24,742 bases of DNA from a virus. Under the pieces are notes generated by a model. The model was not told the origin of the DNA. It saw nothing but the letters and a program-made list of their open reading frames with translations, and made no database searches. Numbering within the stretch: position 1 is the first letter of the stretch; every line of letters starts with the position of its first letter. Below, piece after piece: positions 1,139 to 24,742 of the stretch. The stretch lies in the IMG/VR virus record IMGVR_UViG_3300044624_002338, positions 1 to 24,742 of that record, one strand, 5' to 3'. Made by a program: the position numbers and the translations under genes.

Positions 1139-4100
1139 GCTCGTTTATCAGCTTGTCTTTTATCAATTCTGTTAGTAATACAACTTCTTAAACCACCACC
1201 AAGTTTCTTTTCTACTTTTTGAGATGTACCGGCAGTTCTCCAAGTATCTTCTGCCAAAACACTAGTACCTTCTTCATTTGTAATTTCAATAGCTCTTGTT
1301 TGTGGATTTAGTTTACATCTTTGTAATAAGTGTTTATTTAGTAAATCTCTTCCTTCTTTTGTTTTGATTTCACCTTTAAATCCACTTAATTTCGTTAAAC
1401 ATTCTCTAAAGTCTGATGGAACTGAACCTCTTATACCTGTGATAGCTCCTAAATTACCATCAAAGTTTTCAACCATCAAATCAAAGTGCATTGAATGCAT
1501 TACAGTTGTAAGATATGCTTGTGTATGTGGACCATTTACACCATCCTTTTTAGGATATCCAGCTACTTTATCTGCTTCCGCTATTGAATCCACTACATCT
1601 CTATGCACCGCTGCAGTTAATTCCTTTTCATCGTTTTTATTCTGAACTGCTTTTTTAACTGCAGAAGATTCAAAATTAATTTCAGTATGTTTTCTTACAA
1701 ACGGTCCAACTTGCGCCAACTCACCAACTTTATGTACAAATTTTCCAAATGGTTCGTATGGAGCATCATCGTTTTCTTTTGCATATTTTTGTGCAAGAAC
1801 TAACCACTCTTTTGTTTCGGTTGGATTATATTTTTTATCAGATAACCATTGATTGAATTTTTTATGAGATTTTAATTGTCCCATATATTTTTTCATTTGT
1901 GGTGTATCACATACAGCAACAAAATCATCATTTAATTTCATTGTAGAAAACATTCTTGTTGTTGCTTTTTTACTATTTGAAACTTTAAGTATTCCATCTT
2001 CAATAACACTTACAACCGTACCAGATACTTTAGGTCCAAAAGAATCTTTAATTAAATTTAAAGCATATTCAGGAGTTGTATTACCCCATATATCTTGTAA
2101 GTCATCTTGTTTTTTATTTGTAATACTGAACACAGTTGTTCTTCCTTTCTTATCAAATCCAACTGCCATAGTATCATGGAATCCTAATTTAGTAAACGCA
2201 TATACTTCGGCTTGATAATGTGCTATATCATCCTTATTACCTTTTGCTTTCGCTTGTTCTAATTTAGAATTCAAATGGTTTATAATACCATCATCATGTC
2301 CACCCTTCTTTGGGTCTGATTGTATAACAATATAATCTTTGCTTGTATCAATTTTAGATTGTTCTTGAATTAATATTCTAGTTGATATTGCTCCATCAAA
2401 ATCCGCTCTAGCCCATGCTCTAAACGCATCTTCATCTTGTCCAAATCCTTGTTTTCCGGTTTTATACCATAATGAATTTTTATCTTTTTTCAATCTAGCC
2501 AATTCATTATCACCAAATACGATTCTTGCACCAATATATTCTAAAACTTTAGCTTCATCCTTTGGTAAAACAAATCCCAATTGTCTAGCCACGGTTTCTA
2601 TTGAACTTTTAAATGCTTTTCTATTTTTGCTAATTTCACCAACTTTTTTAGCAACTGCGTTTTTATTTCCCGCTACATATCCTTCAAACCCACCAACTTC
2701 TTGTAATTTGTTTGCAAATGTAGTAAGTGCAGCTTCTCCATATGATGCAACAGGACCACCCGCTCCAGCTATTCCCTTATCTCTATCTGAAATCAATTTT
2801 GCATTTACACTTCTCAATGATTGTAAACTACCATTATTTAATCCATTAGAAACTACCGATGGAATTGAATTATCCGTAGTTACCGGTTTTGGTTCTGCCT
2901 TTGGAGTTGATTTTTTTAAATCTTTGGTTTGTCTAAATCCACTTGGAGCAATTGTTTTACCAACTTGTGCTTTTGGTTTAGGAGCTGCTGTTTTATTCTT
3001 ATCTGCTTTTTCTTTTGCTGTTAATTTTCTTAAAGCACCATCATCGGTTTTATGTGTAATATCACCATCAGCTTGTTTAGAATAATACCCACCCCCTCTA
3101 TGATAATATCCAGGATGTGTTTGAGATGGTTTCGGATTAGCTTCTTCAATAAATCCTTCAATAATTTGACCAATCATTTTATCAACTAATGGTAATAATT
3201 CTTCTTTCATTTGAATTTGTTCGTTTTTGTTTTTTTGTCTCCATATATCATCAACTAAATCAGCATGTCCCTCACCTGCAACTACAACCGGTATTTTACC
3301 TTGTGCAGATAATTCTTTTTGTTTTTTAATAATATTAAGGTCTCTTGCTTTATTAAATGCAACTTGAACATCGTTTACCCCTGTTTCTCTATCGCCATTA
3401 TCGTCTGGAAAAGACAATCTATATAATGTTCCTTTATCACCCGTTCCTTTCCAACCATTTTCTTCACTTGGCTTTTCACCTGTTGGGTTATCGAAATTTT
3501 CTATTGGAGGCAATCCTGCTTCTTTAGCTGCATCTTGTAAGAATTGTTTACCTTCATCATCTAAAAATTTAGATGTCTCCATTGTATCAGTACCCTCACC
3601 TTGTCCAATCATACTAGCCCAATTACCAGCTTTGATTTTACTTTGTGAAAGACCAGTTTGTTTCTCTTGTGATTTATATAATTCAGATTCGGGTTTGTGT
3701 ACATCTAATGCATCTCCATCAAAACTATCCACACCCGCACCCATTTCTTTAAATTTTTCTTGTGCAGGTATCATTTCATCATTGAACTCCAATTCACCAC
3801 TATTACCGGTTGCACCACCTTCACCAACAAATACAATATCTTTCCACTTTTCTTTTGGCACAGTTGCTTTTACCTGATTTACAATATCATCAACCATTTT
3901 TTCGTCTCTATGAACGGTTCCAAAAAGGTATCCGCCACCTTCAAATTCAATTGTTTTAATTTCTTTACCAGATGATTCACCTTTAAATGTTTTTACATTT
4001 GATTCAGGATCGGTTTCATTTGATTTTACTTCTGCAGCTTTTGGTTCAGTTGGTGTTTCCTTATTAGCATCTGCTTTTTTAGCTGCTATACCCATATCTT

Positions 4101-5406: not shown

Positions 5407-6015
5407 TTAAAATTTGTGGTCAGCCGGTTCACATATCATTTCTAATTCGTCCCAATGAAATTTTGGTTTTTCATTTAGAAATACAAAACATTTCCATTTA
5501 TTTGATTTTTCAAAGTAAACGTGTTTTTGTAAATATGATGGGATTGCTGCCCCAGTTGGTACTCTTTTAACAGGAGTATCAAAAAAAGTTTTTATTAAAA
5601 CGGTGATTGGTTCTACATCATCCCACTTACGAATTTGTTCTTCTAACATTCTCCACTCACCTCTATTAAGATATTGATTTTGCATTATTGAATTTAGATA
5701 TGAAAACGTCTGCTTCAAATTCGCTTCATTATCAGAGAATGTTGCCGCAGGAGCCCCATGTCCTTTATCATAAATGTTACCTTTATAATCTTCACCATCT
5801 GAAGTTTTAATTCCCTTCTCCATATAGAAATCCATATGACCTCTATTAACATTTGTAGGGCGGTTTGTAGAACGATACTTAATGATTAGTGGTTGTTCTA
5901 ACGATTGTGAATAAAGTACTTCAAACACTTCATTCTTAACTCTCACATCAGGTAGTTGTCCAAACGATGTTAAGGAAACGATTAAAAACGATAAAAGAAA
6001 CATCAATTTTTTCAT
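5407..6015 (-). CDS. Secreted DNA/RNA non-specific endonuclease (NucA/EndA-like)
   Basis: I place the start at 6015, giving 202 aa beginning MKKLMFLLSFLIVSLTSFGQ. This is a clear signal peptide with predicted signal peptidase I cleavage near SFG-Q, a pattern common in Bacteroidota. The longer ATG at 6081 would overlap the polymerase gene and bury the signal. The mature part matches the beta-beta-alpha metal non-specific nuclease family: YDKGHGAPA (residues 82-90) is the DRGH-type catalytic motif with H86 as general base and Lys in place of Arg, and QNQYLNRGEWRMLEE (112-126) is the metal-binding Asn/Glu region. The family degrades DNA and RNA in the periplasm or outside the cell. A TATTTATA element lies 25 bases upstream of the start, so it may have its own promoter. 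Host-nucleotide salvage or exclusion of other DNA are possible roles, both inferred. Confidence 0.85.
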   Translation of the reverse strand: MKKLMFLLSFLIVSLTSFGQLPDVRVKNEVFEVLYSQSLEQPLIIKYRSTNRPTNVNRGHMDFYMEKGIKTSDGEDYKGNIYDKGHGAPAATFSDNEANLKQTFSYLNSIMQNQYLNRGEWRMLEEQIRKWDDVEPITVLIKTFFDTPVKRVPTGAAIPSYLQKHVYFEKSNKWKCFVFLNEKPKFHWDELEMICEPADHKF

Positions 6016-6039
6016 ATTATAGCATATTTTTGTATATAA

Positions 6040-6047
6040 TATAAATA
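6040..6047 (-). promoter_or_regulatory. Late-promoter-like octamer TATTTATA upstream of the nuclease gene
   Basis: The coding strand reads TATTTATA 25 bases before the preferred nuclease ATG at 6015 and just after the polymerase stop codon. Its position supports the shorter nuclease start. No terminator hairpin is seen between it and the polymerase gene. Confidence 0.4.
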
Positions 6048-6053
6048 TGACTG

Positions 6054-7337
6054 TTATAACTTTCCGTAATCTAAACCCCAACTTGCTTTTACAGGAAACC
6101 CACTACCTTCAATGATTTCCTTCAATCCTTTAACCAATTCTTTATCCACATCAGTAGGAACATCAAAAAGGAATGAATCATATGTGTATAAACAAAACTT
6201 TATATCACTCCCCTTTATATAATCCAATACCTTTCCCATAACATCTACGTTCATCTCAGTCTCAACCGCTTGTAGTAGATAGTTAAATACTTTTTGTGGG
6301 TTTGGTTGTTCAATCCACTCCAAAGGAATAATACGATGGGGTGTTTGTAAGTACCCCAGCTTTTGTGTTTCAATCCATAGGTTATCAATGTAATCAGCTA
6401 CGGCATTAAAGTATGGAATTTGGCGGAAATCATCATCAATACCACCATACAATAATTGGAACGTAACCCCTTTGGATTCCTCAACACTACACCCATATTG
6501 GTCAGCTAACCATTGGTGTACGTTACCATCCGGCATTTCGAACTTAATCAACTTACCGATAAGACGAGGGTGATACGCATTATAATCCATTTGTAAGAAT
6601 ATCCCATCCGATACAAACACATCTCTACTACCATCCGATTTATTCAATGCCGCATAGTTCACACCACCATGACGATTGGATGGACGACCGGTTACGGTGA
6701 ATGGATTGTATTCGGTATATACCACATCTCCTTTTAAGTGTTTCTGGGCTTGTGGCCATCTATCAATAAATTTTTTCTCATCGACCCGAACCCCATATCC
6801 CTCAATCTCTGAAAGGGTTGGAATGAAGATATCGTTGTACCAATTATAAGTTTTAGATTTTTGTCTATAAGTTTTTCTTAATTCCGGTTCTATCGCTTCC
6901 GCAAGTTTAAGAATGGGAATAGATTGAATGACATCTTCTTTGTAACCTTTGTGTAATAAGGGAGCTACCAGGTGTTGTAGTGGTTGTTGGTAGTCTATCG
7001 TTTCACCTGTTTTTAAGAAATAAGCGGTATCAATGTCATTCAATCCTTCCCTTATATTTTGAAACGATTGTAGTAGCTTTTTCTTTTGGAATACCCACTT
7101 ATCCCCTTTTGTATTTAAGATACCCTCTATTAGTGATTTAGAGAGTGATAGAGAGTCTGTATGTTGATGTGGTAGGATATATCGGTCCGTCAAAGTTCTT
7201 ACGAAAATAAAGGATATATGTGTGTTTCGTGGATGTTTATCGTTATCCACCCACATAGGATACCAAACCGATGGTTCAGTTTCCAAAATCCTCTTTAATT
7301 CATCAATCTCACCAATATTTTCTACTATCCTTATCAT
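6054..7337 (-). CDS. Compact divergent family-A DNA polymerase
   Basis: This 427-aa protein carries the family-A polymerase motifs in order. TGRPSN (216-221) resembles the TGR.S motif. LQMDYNAYHPRLIG (248-261) is motif A, with D251 and R258 in register with DYSQIELR. SKGVTFQLLYGG (288-299) is motif B (K289, F293, Y297, G298). FNYLLQAVETEM (351-362) resembles the conserved QGTAAD helix region. YTYDSFLFD (384-392) is motif C with D387. Oddities: the motif A Glu used as steric gate is His here (H256), and motif C HDE is YDS. Residues 1-170 have no recognisable 5'-3' exonuclease and at most a degenerate 3'-5' exonuclease. T4 itself uses a family-B polymerase. The start overlaps the upstream 94-aa gene by 29 bases, suggesting translational coupling. 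Whether it is the replicative enzyme cannot be told. Confidence 0.8.
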   Translation of the reverse strand: MIRIVENIGEIDELKRILETEPSVWYPMWVDNDKHPRNTHISFIFVRTLTDRYILPHQHTDSLSLSKSLIEGILNTKGDKWVFQKKKLLQSFQNIREGLNDIDTAYFLKTGETIDYQQPLQHLVAPLLHKGYKEDVIQSIPILKLAEAIEPELRKTYRQKSKTYNWYNDIFIPTLSEIEGYGVRVDEKKFIDRWPQAQKHLKGDVVYTEYNPFTVTGRPSNRHGGVNYAALNKSDGSRDVFVSDGIFLQMDYNAYHPRLIGKLIKFEMPDGNVHQWLADQYGCSVEESKGVTFQLLYGGIDDDFRQIPYFNAVADYIDNLWIETQKLGYLQTPHRIIPLEWIEQPNPQKVFNYLLQAVETEMNVDVMGKVLDYIKGSDIKFCLYTYDSFLFDVPTDVDKELVKGLKEIIEGSGFPVKASWGLDYGKL

Positions 7338-7645: not shown

Positions 7646-8032
7646 TGGTGGAGATGAGGGGAATCGAACCCCTGTCTTACGAAGTAATCATAATACCAGC
7701 ATGTCACACGTTTAGGATAAAGTTTAATCTTACAAACTTTCCAAAATAATTGGGGCCGTATGGTTAGTACAGCTTTCCACCAACCCATCAGTTTTAGAGA
7801 GCCGATAGGTAGAGCTCCTTTTTGTTCACTTCTTTTTTAAACCCCATGAGTGATACGGGAGGTGATTAGGCTGCTACAGCTAAATCAGCACCCATGAATG
7901 ACATTACATCATCAAAGGTCCAAGTAGATAATTCTACGTCAGTTATTGTTTTGTACAGATTTAAAGACATCTAGCACTTCTGTCTACGTGTGGTACTACC
8001 ATTCTCATCGCAATCAAATCCATGGCATCCCC
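7646..8032 (-). ncRNA. ssrA: tmRNA (transfer-messenger RNA)
   Basis: A 387-base tmRNA. The 5' end GGGGATG pairs with CATCTCC near the 3' end as a 7-bp acceptor stem with a G3-U70 wobble, the identity element for alanyl-tRNA synthetase. Discriminator A and a template-encoded CCA follow (7649-7646). A T-arm with GGTTCGATTCC precedes it. Helix H2 forms between CACACGT near the 5' end and ACGTGTG near the 3' end. A pseudoknot after the reading frame pairs GGTT with AACC and GCTGTA with TACGGC in interleaved order. The tag frame probably resumes at GAC (7940), since TAAC at -5 to -2 fits the usual U-A at -5/-4, and stops at TAA (7868-7866). The 24-residue tag starts DVELS and ends MGADLAVAA, an AA-ending ClpXP-type degron. 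Known role: trans-translation rescue of stalled ribosomes. The gene is complete, not an att fragment. Confidence 0.95.
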
Positions 8033-15185: not shown

Positions 15186-17600
15186 TTATCGTTGTCCGTA
15201 ACTAAAATTGTTTCTCGTAGAATTTTCAGATACATTTGTTATACCTGATGTAATCTTTATACCATCCAAGAATGCACTTGCTTTAATTTTACCTGAACCC
15301 ATATCTTCTCTTAACTTTTTCACTTCGTTTATTAAAATACTTACACCATTATTTGCATTCAATCCACCACCTTGCACCCCACTACCCATATTTGACATAT
15401 TTGCCATTCTTGATGCTTCATTTAATTTTGAAATCGCATTTGGAGCAGCTACTAAATCATCGTTTGGAGATATCTGTACTAAACCACCTTCTTTTGTTGA
15501 TATTTGAGTTCTACCATTTGCAGGAGATAATACATCCCCAGCATCTTTAACACTTGCACTACCCATATATGCCATCAAAGAAGCTATACCAGCGCCCGCT
15601 GCTATCAATCCTAATGGCCCTAATTTCGCATTACCGGCAAAAATGGATGCAATTGCTTCTTTCATTTTTAACAATGCTGTTTTTTTACTTAAAATATACA
15701 TTGTTGTCAATCCACCAATAAGTGCAGGGAATAGACCTGGTATTGAATTTAATGCCCCAAATATCCCACCAAATACATTTCCTAAAGTAGTTACTATCGG
15801 TGCTAATGCTTCCATTAATGGTAACAATCCTTCACCAACAGCCGCAACAATACCTTTAAATGAATTTTCCATTTGGGTTATCTTATCTGCGATTTCTTCT
15901 TGTTTTGCTAATTCTTTTGTTTTTGCGTTTAATTGGTCTTCACTCATATTAGTAATATCCAATCCAGCATCCATAGCTTTAGAAACTCTTTTTTGTTCTT
16001 CTTCGCTAAGATGTCCAAGCTTTTCTTGCATAAGAATTTGCTTAGTCAAGTCCTCAACCGTTTTACCAGTAGCATCTGCTAACGCCTTTTTAGTAAACAT
16101 ATCCTGGTCAGCAAACTTACCATTTCTCTCAACTTGTCTTAATAATTCTTTTTGTGCATCAACGTGTCTTCCGGCATATGCTAAAGCTCTGGCTTGTGAT
16201 AAATTAAATTGTCCACCAACAAAAGTTGCTGCAACTAATTCCTTTTCAATACCAGTTTCAAAATCTAATAAACTTTCGGTTGTTTTTAATACATCCTTTA
16301 ATGTAGTACCCAATCTTCTAGCTTCAATAGCTTGTTTAGCAATAAGATTTACATCACCTTTAAAATATGTATATGTATCTGCTGCCGAGTCTGCTATATC
16401 TTTAAACACTTGCGATGGAGCAACACCAGCTAACTTAGCCATATCAGCTACTTGCTGCGAAACTCCTTGTGCAGTTTCGGCAGATAGGCCCGCCATACTT
16501 TGAAAAATCATATTAACGGCCGCCGCATCTTTTTGTGCAACTCCAAAGTTTTTGTTTAATACAGATACATTGGCCGCTACCGCTTTTGATACTGGAACAC
16601 TATCACCAAATTCGCTTTTAAATGCCGCAATACTATCATATGCAACTCCAGCATCCACACCCAATTTAGCAAAATCAACTCCAATACTATGTGCATCTTT
16701 TTGAATTTGCTTTGTTTGAGAATTTGTTAAACCAGTTTCTTCTCTAAACTTCTTACTTGCTTCTTGTATTTCAGTAAACGATGATAATGCGGCTGCAAAT
16801 AATGCACCCATTATTACAATTGGACCTAATCCCGCTGCAATCCCTTTTATCATATCCTTTACAACGGTTAAAGCCGATTGTAAACCTTCTGGTAATTGCT
16901 CTACTAATCCATCCTGTTGCTTTTGTAATTCAACTAATCGTTCCTGTTGTTTTAATAAATTTTCGTTTGATTGGAATATTTGTTCTGATAACTTTCTATC
17001 TTCCTCATTCATTCCCAAAATAGATGCTTGGAATTCTTGTCTTCTTCTTTGTGCATCAGTTATACCAAACACATTTTCTCTTTCGGTTGCTAACCCTTCA
17101 GCTGCATCTACCTGTGTACTTCTTATACCTTCTAATGCTTTTCTTCTTTCCTGCAGCGATTCTAACTCGTCTCCAGATGCATTTATTTCCTGCTTTTTAA
17201 GACTTAATATTCTAGCCGTTATTGCTGCAAATTGATTACCACCATTATTCGAATCGGTTAAAAGCTCTTTTACTTTTGGTGTCATTTTTGCGAATGATGC
17301 TGCAAAATCATTTGAGGTTTCCCAAAAATCTTCTTGCTTTTCTGCCGCATCTGCCCAAAACTTTACATAATCACTTGCTTTATCCTCAACCTCTTTTAAA
17401 CTCTTTAATTGTTCGTCTAAATTTTTGCCATGAGTTTTATCTTCTTCATTTCTTTTTTTGAGACGCTTGATTTCTTCATGACCAGCAACAGCCATTCTTT
17501 TATTTCGCTCTTCTATTCGCTGTTCAATTTGCTCTCGCTCTTTGAGTAATTGATTTTGTCTTTCTAGCTCTTGAGCGGATAAACTTCTTACATCTGCCAT
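15186..17600 (-). CDS. Tail tape measure protein (804 aa)
   Basis: Residues 1-80 and about 130-250 are strongly coiled-coil (ERQNQLLKEREQIEQRIEERNKR, EQIFQSNENLLKQQERLVELQKQQD). A hydrophobic segment at about 251-273 (IKGIAAGLGPIVIMGALFAAALSSF) and two more near 580-640 and 655-680 resemble the membrane-active parts of tape measure proteins. The middle (about 280-570) is Ala/Lys/Asp-rich helix. The C-terminus is Gly/Asn-rich. Known role: template for tail tube length, ejected during infection. At roughly 0.15 nm per residue, 804 aa would give a tail near 120 nm. It follows a 77-aa gene by 11 bases and precedes the baseplate genes, the usual place for a tape measure. T4 gp29 is about 590 aa. 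The call rests on architecture and position. Confidence 0.85.
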   Translation of the reverse strand: MADVRSLSAQELERQNQLLKEREQIEQRIEERNKRMAVAGHEEIKRLKKRNEEDKTHGKNLDEQLKSLKEVEDKASDYVKFWADAAEKQEDFWETSNDFAASFAKMTPKVKELLTDSNNGGNQFAAITARILSLKKQEINASGDELESLQERRKALEGIRSTQVDAAEGLATERENVFGITDAQRRRQEFQASILGMNEEDRKLSEQIFQSNENLLKQQERLVELQKQQDGLVEQLPEGLQSALTVVKDMIKGIAAGLGPIVIMGALFAAALSSFTEIQEASKKFREETGLTNSQTKQIQKDAHSIGVDFAKLGVDAGVAYDSIAAFKSEFGDSVPVSKAVAANVSVLNKNFGVAQKDAAAVNMIFQSMAGLSAETAQGVSQQVADMAKLAGVAPSQVFKDIADSAADTYTYFKGDVNLIAKQAIEARRLGTTLKDVLKTTESLLDFETGIEKELVAATFVGGQFNLSQARALAYAGRHVDAQKELLRQVERNGKFADQDMFTKKALADATGKTVEDLTKQILMQEKLGHLSEEEQKRVSKAMDAGLDITNMSEDQLNAKTKELAKQEEIADKITQMENSFKGIVAAVGEGLLPLMEALAPIVTTLGNVFGGIFGALNSIPGLFPALIGGLTTMYILSKKTALLKMKEAIASIFAGNAKLGPLGLIAAGAGIASLMAYMGSASVKDAGDVLSPANGRTQISTKEGGLVQISPNDDLVAAPNAISKLNEASRMANMSNMGSGVQGGGLNANNGVSILINEVKKLREDMGSGKIKASAFLDGIKITSGITNVSENSTRNNFSYGQR

Positions 17601-17891: not shown

Positions 17892-17925
17892 AAAAAGTTA
17901 GGACTATCTCTTAATCCTAACTTTT
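17892..17925 (-). terminator. Intrinsic terminator after the gp26-like/55-codon unit, stop codon in the loop
   Basis: An 11-bp stem (AAAAGTTAGGA / TCCTAACTTTT, arms 17893-17903 and 17915-17925) has an 11-base loop. On the minus strand the GC-bearing part is followed by TTTTTC. The TAG stop (17906-17904) of the 55-codon ORF lies in the loop. A-tracts and T-tracts on both sides could make it bidirectional. Confidence 0.75.
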
Positions 17926-18071
17926 GAAGATGTATTACCTTTTTGTGCTTGTTTAACATCTTCCGCTTCTTTCTTTTTAGATTCTACTAATTTATCATAA
18001 TAAAACATTCTTAAATATGTTGGCATTTTGTATAGCTCCATGATTGTAAACCCGTTACTATACTCAACCAT
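17904..18071 (-). CDS. Small ORF (55 aa) after the gp26-like gene, possible +1 frameshift extension
   Basis: Reads MVEYSNGFTIMELYKMP then a helical LRMFYYDKLVESKKKEAEDVKQ and a basic tail. The pattern (I/F)EMV.YSNGFT..E.Y.MP.YLR.FYY resembles small baseplate or tail assembly chaperones I recall next to gp26-type genes in T4-like phages. The ATG lies 28 bases past the TAG of the gp26-like gene. The same frame stays open upstream of the ATG (HLHTQIFE precedes it and looks protein-like) up to a T7 run at 18126-18120 inside the gp26-like gene. A TAG closes this frame just upstream of the T7 run. No Shine-Dalgarno or GTG/TTG start is seen in the extension. It could therefore be made from its own ATG, or as the tail of a 319-residue fusion through a +1 slip. 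It ends inside a terminator hairpin. Confidence 0.7.
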   Translation of the reverse strand: MVEYSNGFTIMELYKMPTYLRMFYYDKLVESKKKEAEDVKQAQKGNTSSKVRIKR

Positions 18072-18099
18072 TTCAAATATTTGAGTATGTAGATGAACA

Positions 18100-18864
18100 C
18101 TATGATTCCTCGGAAGGCCAAAAAAACCCTACTCCAATTGGAATAGGCGCCTCCTCCACCTCACCATCTTCATGTGTATATTTAAATACCATATTCATAT
18201 CTGGTGAAACTTTCTTAACATAATCTCTGAATGCTTTACTATCTCTAGCCAAAAATTCATTATTGATAAATTTATTAATTCTACCAATATCCGTATTACC
18301 ATCAACCGATTTAATCATATATCTCAATCGTGTTGTAATTTCAAATGAAGTATCCTTATTTATTTTTTCTAATGCTTGGATATCTTTATCAATTGCTCTT
18401 TCATCACCATGTGTAAGTAATTTAAATGTTAATTTATTTTTACCAATAGGTGTTTCAAATTGAAATTCATTGATATTTTGAATATCTGATACATCAATAT
18501 CCTTTGTTCTGATTTCAGATAAATCTACAGTTGCTTCAATCGTTTTACCGAGTTTGTTAGAATAAAACGATATTTTGTAATTTGGTCCATATCCCAAAAG
18601 TCTTGTTGCAAGAACAATTGCGTTTTTATCACCGATTAAAATATCATCAATATTAACATCATCTACTATAATTGATTCAAAAAGTTTGTCTAAAACAATA
18701 CCTTTTTTAATTAAATTTGCAGATGAAAGAATATCCTCTTCCTTTGCTGTCATATACTTTATTGTAATATTACCAGAGGATAATGGATTGTTTTTTGGGT
18801 AAAGTTTTCCTTTTGATGGAAGCTCAAGTACCTGTGTTGGAAAATCAAATTGCTTTTCACTCAT
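18100..18864 (-). CDS. gp26-like T4-type baseplate protein / assembly factor, 254 aa
   Basis: The N-terminus VLELPSKGKLYPKNNPLSSGNITIKYMTAKEEDILSS and the following LDKLFESIIVDDVNIDDILIGDKNAIVLATRLLGYGPNYKISF match the pattern of the T4 baseplate protein family that includes gp26 (PSKG..YP, MTA.EED, GDKNA, R...YG..Y). T4 gp26 is 208 aa and acts in baseplate hub assembly. It follows the tail tube gene and leads toward the tape measure, where tailed phages usually place tail assembly chaperones. Near the 3' end the codons GGG TTT TTT TGG hold a T7 run (18126-18120), after which the +1 frame opens into the downstream 55-codon ORF. A TATTTATA element lies 28 bases upstream of the ATG, after the tube terminator. 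Confidence 0.8.
   Translation of the reverse strand: MSEKQFDFPTQVLELPSKGKLYPKNNPLSSGNITIKYMTAKEEDILSSANLIKKGIVLDKLFESIIVDDVNIDDILIGDKNAIVLATRLLGYGPNYKISFYSNKLGKTIEATVDLSEIRTKDIDVSDIQNINEFQFETPIGKNKLTFKLLTHGDERAIDKDIQALEKINKDTSFEITTRLRYMIKSVDGNTDIGRINKFINNEFLARDSKAFRDYVKKVSPDMNMVFKYTHEDGEVEEAPIPIGVGFFWPSEES
18120..18126 (-). other. T7 homopolymer, candidate +1 frameshift site
   Basis: On the coding strand TTT TTT T|GG: codons 247-248 (Phe-Phe) then Trp-249 of the gp26-like gene. Phe-tRNA on the second TTT could slide one base forward onto TTT again, and the next codon becomes GGC in the frame of the small downstream ORF. The +1 frame has a stop just before the run and none after it until 17906. 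The real frame ends at 18102-18100. Confidence 0.4.
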
Positions 18865-18972: not shown

Positions 18973-19476
18973 TTAGTATTCTAATATAGCGTAATCGTAT
19001 GTAAGAGTTAATTCTATCGTTGCAGGTTCGTTTTCGCTTGAGAAATCAAGTTCACCAAATGCCGCTCTTGAAATGAATGCACCCATAATAGTCCATTTTT
19101 CAATCTTATCACCAACAGGTCCTAACATATAGAAGTTAAGATTTTTCTTATAGAATTCAGCGTATCCATCTCTACCGGTAATAGATTCATGTGATAAACG
19201 TACCCACTCCATTACATATTGTGCCGCTGATGGTACAATTGGGTCATAAAGTGTGATAGTTAAATCTTGCCACTCACCTTTACCTTTAAGTTTTCTATAA
19301 ACGTTAATGTGGTCAATCTTTACAGTTTGAAACTGAATTTCTGGTCTATTTGCCGCCTTTACCATATATGCTGGAATGCCAGTATCTGCCATTTCCATAT
19401 AGTAACGATTCTTCATCTTTGGCTCAAACTGAGCGAAAGTCATTTTATCATACGATAATATTAAATCATCTGCCAT
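18973..19476 (-). CDS. Tail tube protein (T4 gp19-like), 167 aa
   Basis: The length is close to T4 gp19 (163 aa). The protein shows the family order: NRYYMEMADTGIPAYMVKAANRPEIQFQTVKIDHINVYRKLKGKGEWQDLTITLYDPI, then the AAQYVMEWVR helix, FYKKNLNFYMLGPVGDKIEKWTIMGAFISRAAFGELDFSSENEPATIELTLTYDYAILEY. Known role: stacked hexameric rings forming the inner tail tube. It lies 54 bases downstream of the sheath gene, the usual T4-like order, and is followed by a strong terminator. It has one of the few clear Shine-Dalgarno sequences in the window (AAAAGGAAAG, about 8 bases before the ATG), fitting a very abundant protein. A one-mismatch TATTTATT lies 25 bases upstream, so it may also be transcribed independently of the sheath. 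Confidence 0.95.
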   Translation of the reverse strand: MADDLILSYDKMTFAQFEPKMKNRYYMEMADTGIPAYMVKAANRPEIQFQTVKIDHINVYRKLKGKGEWQDLTITLYDPIVPSAAQYVMEWVRLSHESITGRDGYAEFYKKNLNFYMLGPVGDKIEKWTIMGAFISRAAFGELDFSSENEPATIELTLTYDYAILEY

Positions 19477-22900: not shown

Positions 22901-24742
22901 TTATTTTTTATTTAGAATTTGATAAACCATTTCTTTCAATTCTTCTATTTGTTTATTTTGATTTTCAATAATTTCTTGCTGCTCTTTTACGGATTGTATA
23001 AGGACAGGTATTATTTTTTCCAATTGTACCGTCTTATAATGTTCACCACTTATAGATTTTCCATCTCCCAATGCATCAAACGGTGCCGGTTTAATAGCTT
23101 GTGGTATAACTTTTTCAACTTCTTGTGCAATTACTCCAATATCATGTCTGTCAATCGGGTTAAATCCTAAATCATCCACAAAATCTTTCCAATCAAAATA
23201 AACACCCCTTAATTCCTTCAACATATCAAGTGCGTTAGGAATTGTAGTAATATTTTCTTTTAATCTTTCATCAGATGAATATGCTACAACGTTACCAGCT
23301 GCATACATATTACCAGATGGGTCTAATTGCCATCTGTTTGAGGATGCAGACCATCCACCTATACGAATTACGTTATCAGCATCAAGTCCCATATTTACCG
23401 CGTAGTAACCTGCTTTATGGAATGAGAAGAATGCTGAGTTATTACTTTGCGAATATGGTTGCATATTTCCCGAATCAAGACTACCACAATATCCGCCCCT
23501 ATTTACATTAAATTGGAATTGGGTATTAGATTGTGAAAAACCACCATTTGTATTGGTGTATGCAAATCTACATCCACCATTAGGGTCAGAGTAATAACCA
23601 CTATCATTAGTATCATAAACTATTGTTGAATAAATTCTACCATCGGTATTGTGATACAAATTACCATGCCAACCATTTATTATAACGGCATAGCTTGAGT
23701 AATTATAATCAGTAAGCATTCGTTTCCAAGGCCTCCAAGTACCATTATCTCCATTTCTACTTCTTAATGAGAATGAATCGCCATAGTAATCACCATTTAA
23801 TTGAATACCATATCCAGATGCTCCAAAGTGTGCAATACAACCAGTTAATGGTGCTGCGTTGGAATAAGTAAACGCAGAGCGGTTACCAGGCATTCCATCT
23901 GCATTTGTACCAGGGTATCCAGTAGTAAATCCATAATCAAAGAAATATCTACCATCTAATGTTCCGGTATAATTTCCTGTTGTAAGAAGTCCTAAAGAAC
24001 CAAAGTTATTCGTATTAGCATATTCAACCCAACCACTCCAGCTACCACCTTGAACATTACGGGAGAAAAAGCGGTTAGCGTTATCTTCCCAACCATATGC
24101 CAATTGAGTACCCCAGTTATTACTACCGTTGTTGTGTCTCATATTCAGTTGAAACCACCAAGTTCCACTAGGTCCACCGGTATATTTATCCTGTCCGAAC
24201 GTCATTGAGGTAACAGGCGTATTTGAGAAGTCATCAAACCAACTACCACCACCATATCCAGCCATACCTTGTTTAGCTCTCAAAGCGGTTCTAGTAACAA
24301 CCATATTACTTTCACTATTAGGGTCAGTATAATATGTTGTATCACTATAATCGTACATTATTTGTGGTCTAATACCACCACTACCAGGTACTTGAATAGT
24401 ATTACCACTCTCACCCATATACATTGTCATAGAACCGTTATTACCATACCAGTGCTGTGCTTCAACTACATATGCGGTGAAATCCCAACGAGGTTCATAG
24501 TTTACATTATTAACAAGTTTAATCCTATTAGGTACTACATAGTTGTATCTAGATGTTCCATTAGGGTCATCGTAATATCCGGTGTTATTTCTATCATACA
24601 TTATTGGAGTTCTTATATCTCCAGGTACATGGAATTCACTACCTTGGAAATAACCACTACCTTCAATATTACCAGTACCAACAGAACTTATATACCCATC
24701 AACATCACCATAAGTGTTCCAAGAATGGAATACAACTCTACC
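22901..24742 (-). CDS. Tail fibre / receptor-binding protein with C-terminal S74 chaperone domain (N-terminus outside window)
   Basis: The frame is open through the right edge, so 613 C-terminal residues are visible; the Met at 24601 is internal. The C-terminal 124 residues (22904-23275) are a peptidase_S74 intramolecular chaperone: SDERLKENI at the domain start carries the Ser and Lys expected for self-cleavage, GVIAQEVEKVIPQAI is the second signature, and a coiled coil (QQEIIENQNKQIEELKEMVYQIL) ends it. The known role of S74 is to trimerise the fibre and then cut itself off. Upstream are repeats of the form YD..(N/D)(T/S).YY.DPN (starting at 24601, 24358 and about 23628) and two Trp/Gly-rich knob-like segments (GGSWSGWVEYANT and NGTWRPWKRMLT), probably the receptor-binding part. 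The host range determinant is therefore likely to lie here. Confidence 0.93.
   Translation of the reverse strand, partial: GRVVFHSWNTYGDVDGYISSVGTGNIEGSGYFQGSEFHVPGDIRTPIMYDRNNTGYYDDPNGTSRYNYVVPNRIKLVNNVNYEPRWDFTAYVVEAQHWYGNNGSMTMYMGESGNTIQVPGSGGIRPQIMYDYSDTTYYTDPNSESNMVVTRTALRAKQGMAGYGGGSWFDDFSNTPVTSMTFGQDKYTGGPSGTWWFQLNMRHNNGSNNWGTQLAYGWEDNANRFFSRNVQGGSWSGWVEYANTNNFGSLGLLTTGNYTGTLDGRYFFDYGFTTGYPGTNADGMPGNRSAFTYSNAAPLTGCIAHFGASGYGIQLNGDYYGDSFSLRSRNGDNGTWRPWKRMLTDYNYSSYAVIINGWHGNLYHNTDGRIYSTIVYDTNDSGYYSDPNGGCRFAYTNTNGGFSQSNTQFQFNVNRGGYCGSLDSGNMQPYSQSNNSAFFSFHKAGYYAVNMGLDADNVIRIGGWSASSNRWQLDPSGNMYAAGNVVAYSSDERLKENITTIPNALDMLKELRGVYFDWKDFVDDLGFNPIDRHDIGVIAQEVEKVIPQAIKPAPFDALGDGKSISGEHYKTVQLEKIIPVLIQSVKEQQEIIENQNKQIEELKEMVYQILNKK
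23565..24601 (-). repeat. Three degenerate YD.N.TGYY.DPNG protein repeats in the tail fibre
   Basis: Copies read YDRNNTGYYDDPNGTS (from 24598), YDYSDTTYYTDPNSES (from 24355) and YDTNDSGYYSDPNGGC (about 23625-23578). Spacing is unequal: about 81 residues, then about 243. I recall this motif from marine phage fibres; it probably marks the boundary of a repeating trimeric shaft unit. A further copy outside the window is likely. Confidence 0.7.

Follow-up and report, generated by a model that had tools for sequence, protein, structure and literature searches.

Identification of the question

The window analysed here is the whole of the IMG/VR contig IMGVR_UViG_3300044624_002338, a viral genome fragment of 24,742 bases; all features described lie on its minus (-) strand. 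A gene resembling T4 gp26 (18864-18100) carries a run of seven T residues close to its end and is followed, in a different frame, by a small open reading frame (ORF) beginning with ATG (18071-17904). Are these two genes, or one gene whose second part is reached by a programmed frameshift? We consider the latter about 90% probable, and take together in that figure that the gene encodes a tail assembly chaperone (TAC) in a short and a long form and that the long form is made by a +1 ribosomal slip.

Reading frames at the end of the gp26-like gene

The T7 run occupies positions 18120..18126 and is read in frame as TTT TTT TGG. From the first TTT of the site to the stop codon TAG (18102-18100) there are eight sense codons. 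The +1 frame is closed just upstream of the run by a TAG (18131-18129); beyond the run, 71 open codons extend from GGC at 18119 to a stop at 17906-17904. The slip sequence, the blocked and open stretches of the +1 frame and the 319-residue fusion described in the initial annotation were all confirmed on the letters. The gene thereby has two possible products: a short form of 254 aa (TAC-N, or 'G'; 18100..18864) and a long form of 319 aa (TAC-NC, or 'GT'; 17904..18864), the latter translated with a single four-base step at TGGC. The extension (TAC-C, or 'T'; 17904..18119) begins with GLPRNHSVHLHTQIFEMVEYSNGF and ends with KVRIKR before the stop. Its codons ahead of the ATG include HLHTQIFE, and the ATG itself (18069..18071; codon 17 of the extension) would be called by gene finders as the first codon of a 55-aa gene of its own. 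The -1 frame at the site is open for short, variable lengths, and conservation is confined to the +1 frame, unlike in TACs with -1 frameshifting (X XXY YYZ), whose extension lies in the -1 frame.

Conservation of the shift site

A first scan with the window protein found 43 related viral loci, and a second scan, with a ten-row alignment as the query, found more than 590; 80 of these were retained. Slip sites were counted in 81 non-redundant relatives, which reach down to about 48% identity in the N-terminal part. The T run, whose conservation in related phages had been proposed as a check, is kept as TTT TTT T in 77 of the 81, followed by GG, AC or AT. The variants are TTTTTTTGG (44 relatives), TTTTTTTAC (32), TTTTTTTAT (1), TTTCTTTGG (2), TTCTTTTAC (1) and TTTCTATTC (1); the sites lacking seven Ts read TTT CTT T (2), TTC TTT T (1) and TTT CTA (1). 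In every one of the 81 the +1 frame continues without a stop through the site and into a homologous extension of 60-90 residues. In all complete relatives an FF[WY]P-like motif closes the gene, beyond which the +1 frame reads LH.QIFE...GNGF...VY.MP..LR.FY.

To judge from codon choice, conservation of the T run exceeds chance. At the two slip-site Phe positions TTT is used by 99% and 100% of the 81 sequences, and seven other conserved Phe columns use it at 62-88%. A count of both slip-site codons together gives TTT in 157 of 158, vs. 76% for Phe codons in the rest of the gene (Fisher p 9e-16). This and the other codon comparisons ignore relatedness, yet the other conserved Phe columns vary freely in the same sequences. 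The Pro codon at the site is CCT in 78 of 80 cases vs. 31% elsewhere, where CCA is the commonest Pro codon; this bias can be attributed to the constraint imposed by a Leu codon in the +1 frame. Tyr-type sites use TAC in 33 of 34 cases vs. 17% elsewhere, where TAT is preferred.

The same layout was observed in cultured phages: Flavobacterium phage immuto (CTT TGG), Microcystis phage Mel-JY01 and Rhodothermus phage RM378 (both TTT TTT TGG), Bacillus phage SP-15 (TTT TTT CAC), Listeria phage LIS04 (TTT TTT AGT) and Streptococcus phage GXN1 (TTC TTT CGT). At one locus (L026, match starting at 4001) the gene is fused in frame to the extension by a deletion just past the slip site, giving an ORF of 261 aa; this is either a natural deletion or an assembly artefact.

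Selection on the extension and the status of the downstream ATG

The ratio of nonsynonymous to synonymous divergence (dN/dS) was computed for 65 pairs that are at least 80% identical in the N-terminal part. In the nine codons that separate the old stop from the ATG equivalent, the +1 frame had a dN/dS of 0.076, vs. 1.1 and 4.6 for the other frames. After the ATG equivalent it was 0.061, and the other two frames of the same DNA were again above 1 (1.1-4.6). The synonymous difference fell from about 0.5 to 0.13 in the overlap, which is expected of doubly coding sequence. Purifying selection in the +1 frame therefore begins upstream of the ATG at 18071, in agreement with the earlier suggestion that the residues before the ATG are continuous with the protein after it.

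A competing explanation, an improbable one in our judgement, is that the ORF at 17904-18071 is a small gene in its own right, with translation starting at its ATG and perhaps coupled to termination upstream. GenBank annotations do show the region as a separate small gene; the window has the ATG, and 40 of 80 relatives have one at the corresponding place. Of the 80, however, 35 lack any ATG between the shift site and that place, the place itself included, and 16 of the 80 lack GTG and TTG there as well. Homologues of the small protein thus do not all begin at this ATG; a start shared by all of them was what the initial annotation had named as refuting a fusion. The structural model of the extension (AlphaFold2 (AF2), mean predicted local distance difference test score (pLDDT) 86) has three predicted helices, at extension residues 6-19, 26-31 and 34-64. 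Since the ATG, at residue 17, falls within helix 1, a protein started at 18071 would miss most of that helix. An independent gene would, in addition, leave both the selection on the codons ahead of the ATG and the conserved T run unexplained. The Shine-Dalgarno (SD) sequence said to be missing before the ATG is indeed missing, but this carries little weight if the host bacterium hardly uses such signals. On the strength of the selection ahead of the ATG, the relatives that have none and its position in the helix, we judge that the ATG at 18071 is not the main start and that the small ORF encodes the C-terminal portion of a fusion protein.

Proposed mechanism of the slip

Comparison of the sites suggests that the slip is made by the ribosome and is +1. 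Most ribosomes would terminate at 18102-18100 and release the 254-aa short form. Some would move one base forward at UUU_UUU_U while UGG stands in the A site: Phe-tRNA, paired in the P site with the second TTT (18123-18121), would re-pair one base 3' on TTT (18122-18120), leaving TGG unread, and 71 further codons would be translated to give the 319-aa long form with its helical C-terminal domain. Nearly all sites in the relatives fit a P-site tRNA on YUU that re-pairs one base further 3', with UUU or UUC.

The proposed slip resembles that in the gene for release factor 2 (RF2; prfB), where at CUU_UGA a P-site YUU also re-pairs on UUU one base 3'. RF2-type sites are defined by a stop codon in the A site and an upstream SD stimulator, whereas here the A-site codon is a sense codon (UGG, UAC or UAT) and SD-like motifs are not enriched. 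A second parallel is influenza PA-X (UCC_UUU_CGU), in which Phe-tRNA on UUU makes a +1 slip with no known stimulator (PMC5009743), and to which the GXN1 site TTC TTT CGT is similar; PA-X is, however, an unrelated gene read by a eukaryotic ribosome.

Several observations weigh against a +1 ribosomal slip in a T4-related chaperone gene. Neither protein data nor ribosome profiling was found to document the fusion. There is no clear stimulator: SD-like motifs occur upstream of the site less often than chance predicts (3 vs. 7.9 expected), and RNA structure downstream of it is weak across the relatives (mean z -0.8) and not significant in the window (z -0.12). The LIS04 site, TTT TTT AGT, would need a wobble mismatch at the second UUU or a slip one codon earlier. 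Finally, the +1 extension alone scores 1% against the C-terminus of T4 gp51, so the link to T4 depends on combined profiles.

Slippage of RNA polymerase on the T7 run, producing mixed transcripts of which one with one U fewer would encode the fusion, seems as improbable as an independent gene. The T7 run is a homopolymer kept in 77 of 81 relatives, a point in favour of such slippage, but the layout persists where the run is broken: at TTTCTTTGG in immuto and L140, TTCTTTTAC in L120, TTTCTATTC in LR756508 and TTCTTTCGT in GXN1. Transcriptional realignment on T runs has also been listed for runs longer than eight (PMC3711429), and the run here has seven. The same broken sites bear on a -2 slip, which would reach the same frame with a product one residue longer than that of +1. 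The second Phe-tRNA on T7 would in that case also pair with UUU, and phage Mu employs -2 for the equivalent gene (PMC5009743). At TTT CTT TGG (immuto, L140), TTC TTT TAC (L120), TTT CTA (LR756508) and TTC TTT CGT (GXN1) a -2 slip mispairs, whereas +1 pairs well at all four site types, as judged by inspection; we regard -2 as slightly less probable still. A sequencing error, to which homopolymers are prone, or a pseudogene can be dismissed, because more than 100 independent metagenome contigs, and cultured isolates too, show the two frames in the same relation, non-homopolymer sites included, and both parts are under purifying selection.

Family, fold and proposed chaperone function

The 254-aa protein matches the Pfam family T4_baseplate (PF12322) with 28.7 bits (cutoff 24.5) and PHROG_150, baseplate hub, with an E-value of 3e-9. 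The N-terminal part and the extension were modelled separately. The AF2 model of the N-terminal part (pLDDT 88.4) matched many T4-like hub assembly proteins in a Foldseek search of BFVD, the closest named match being the hub subunit of Bacillus phage SP-15 (template modelling (TM) score 0.80, E 5e-18); against the PDB, Foldseek gave no meaningful match to a solved structure. Family searches with the extension alone gave chance matches only, and tblastn of the extension against phages gave nothing; its relatedness was assessed via loci and profiles instead of single-sequence searches.

According to a 2016 review, G-T frameshifting is a conserved feature of long-tailed phages, T4 excepted, and shifts of -1, -2 and +1 are all found (PMC5009743). 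The TAC genes of T4-like phages have been identified by Vladimirov, Gautam and Davidson (2022, Virology 566:9-15), who, as cited in PMC10274946 (PRFect) and PMC12846349 (Adele), found that some phages carry a short and a long copy, others a -1 site of the polyT kind. The view that frameshifting in a T4-type gp26 gene would be unusual therefore needs correction: it is the +1 direction that is unusual. As far as these citing papers report, the T4-like TAC-N/TAC-NC pairs share with the window gene the family PF12322, the 3' place of the shift and domain boundary, the short and long forms and the polyT sites; the reported shifts are -1, and that of the window phage would be +1. No description of a +1 form of the T4-like chaperone was found in the literature searched, in which the 2022 study was covered through the papers citing it. 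Family assignment and the existence of shifting are thus already known, and what appears new, within these sources, is the +1 shift at YUU_U in this lineage.

In T4 itself, gp26 and gp51 match the same PF12322 model from end to end. They are presumably the two T4 genes meant in the 2022 study, which fits this shared match. Both are listed as hub assembly chaperones (PMC3004832). T4 has two separate genes, short and long, and no frameshift, in contrast to the single shifted gene of the window phage. The likeness to lambda gpG/gpGT lies in the one short and one long product (PMC5009743); lambda uses a -1 slip. By this analogy, the short form would coat the tape measure protein and the long form would recruit tail tube subunits.

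Relatives with a -1 layout and the link to T4

A -1 layout with TTTTTTC sites was detected in Synechococcus phage Sf-FS3, Rhizobium phage IC12, Aeromonas phage phiAS5, Agrobacterium phage Atu_ph07 and Pseudomonas phage PA5oct, and a -1 layout with a less regular site in Pseudomonas phage Cygsa01. The tiny genes annotated as 'baseplate hub assembly catalyst' after gp26 in Sf-FS3 and Cygsa01 (L055 and L057) resemble a -1-frame extension of gp26 and not separate genes. T4 gp51 carries an extra C-terminal domain, to which the -1 extensions correspond at 96.8% in profile comparison. A weaker correspondence links the pool of +1 extensions to a pool of the -1 extensions and the gp51 C-terminus (hhalign 87.2%; reversed controls below 1%). 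The full fusion profile scores only 1.4% against the full gp51 profile, and the T4 link consequently rests on Pfam for the N-terminal part and on the pooled extension profiles for the C-terminal part.

In a tree, gp26 and gp51 share one side with four of the -1 phages, and the opposite side holds every +1 phage together with three -1 phages. Long branches, of which there are several, make the deep placement unsure. A homologue from a huge phage (L050, LR756511) has a canonical -1 site, GGT TTT TTC, yet groups with the +1 shifters.

Gene order

The putative chaperone gene lies between the genes for tail tube and tape measure proteins, the position of TAC pairs made by frameshifting. Upstream are the tail sheath gene (21867-19531; Phage_sheath match) and the gp19-like tail tube gene (18973..19476; PHROG_4542 tail tube, E 4e-27), whose product is 46% identical to its immuto homologue. 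Downstream is the tape measure gene (15186..17600), whose product aligns with the protein annotated as tail tape measure in immuto (E 8e-19); a 77-aa ORF (17845-17612) lies between it and the extension. The order sheath, tube, chaperone, tape measure is identical in immuto. Gene order, family and fold all fit the tail-chaperone reading. A second, long PF12322 gene, as in a split-gene TAC, was not found in this 24.7-kb fragment, and the complete immuto genome gave one tblastn place.

Three further features were observed. A complete tmRNA gene adjoins the tail genes (7646-8032; Rfam RF00023, 81.8 bits), with a 24-residue tag predicted by ARAGORN, DVELSTWTFDDVMSFMGADLAVAA; a phage with its own ribosome rescue would here also depend on frameshifting. 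The gene at 22901-24742 encodes a tail protein with a C-terminal Peptidase_S74 intramolecular chaperone domain, and a DNA/RNA non-specific endonuclease (Endonuclease_NS, E 2e-17) is encoded at 5407-6081 amid structural genes.

Implications

Judging from the nearest cultured relative, the hosts are apparently mainly Bacteroidota. It seems probable, with less assurance than for the shift itself, that a large T4-related lineage uses a new class of +1 shift, defined by YUU_U, by an A-site sense codon and by the absence of any stimulator of the SD or RNA-structure kind. The direction of the slip would have changed within one homologous gene that shifts -1 in T4-side relatives, and T4 would later have replaced shifting by the gp26/gp51 split. 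Few +1 sites other than that of prfB are well supported; here, comparison of at least 80 non-redundant variants from nature may reveal the minimal signal. In several cultured phages the annotation would be corrected, a 'baseplate hub' gene and a tiny 'hypothetical' gene being one frameshifted gene. The +1, -1 and split-gene solutions to the same need would be connected, and the change in slip direction and the loss of shifting in T4 would become open to experiment.
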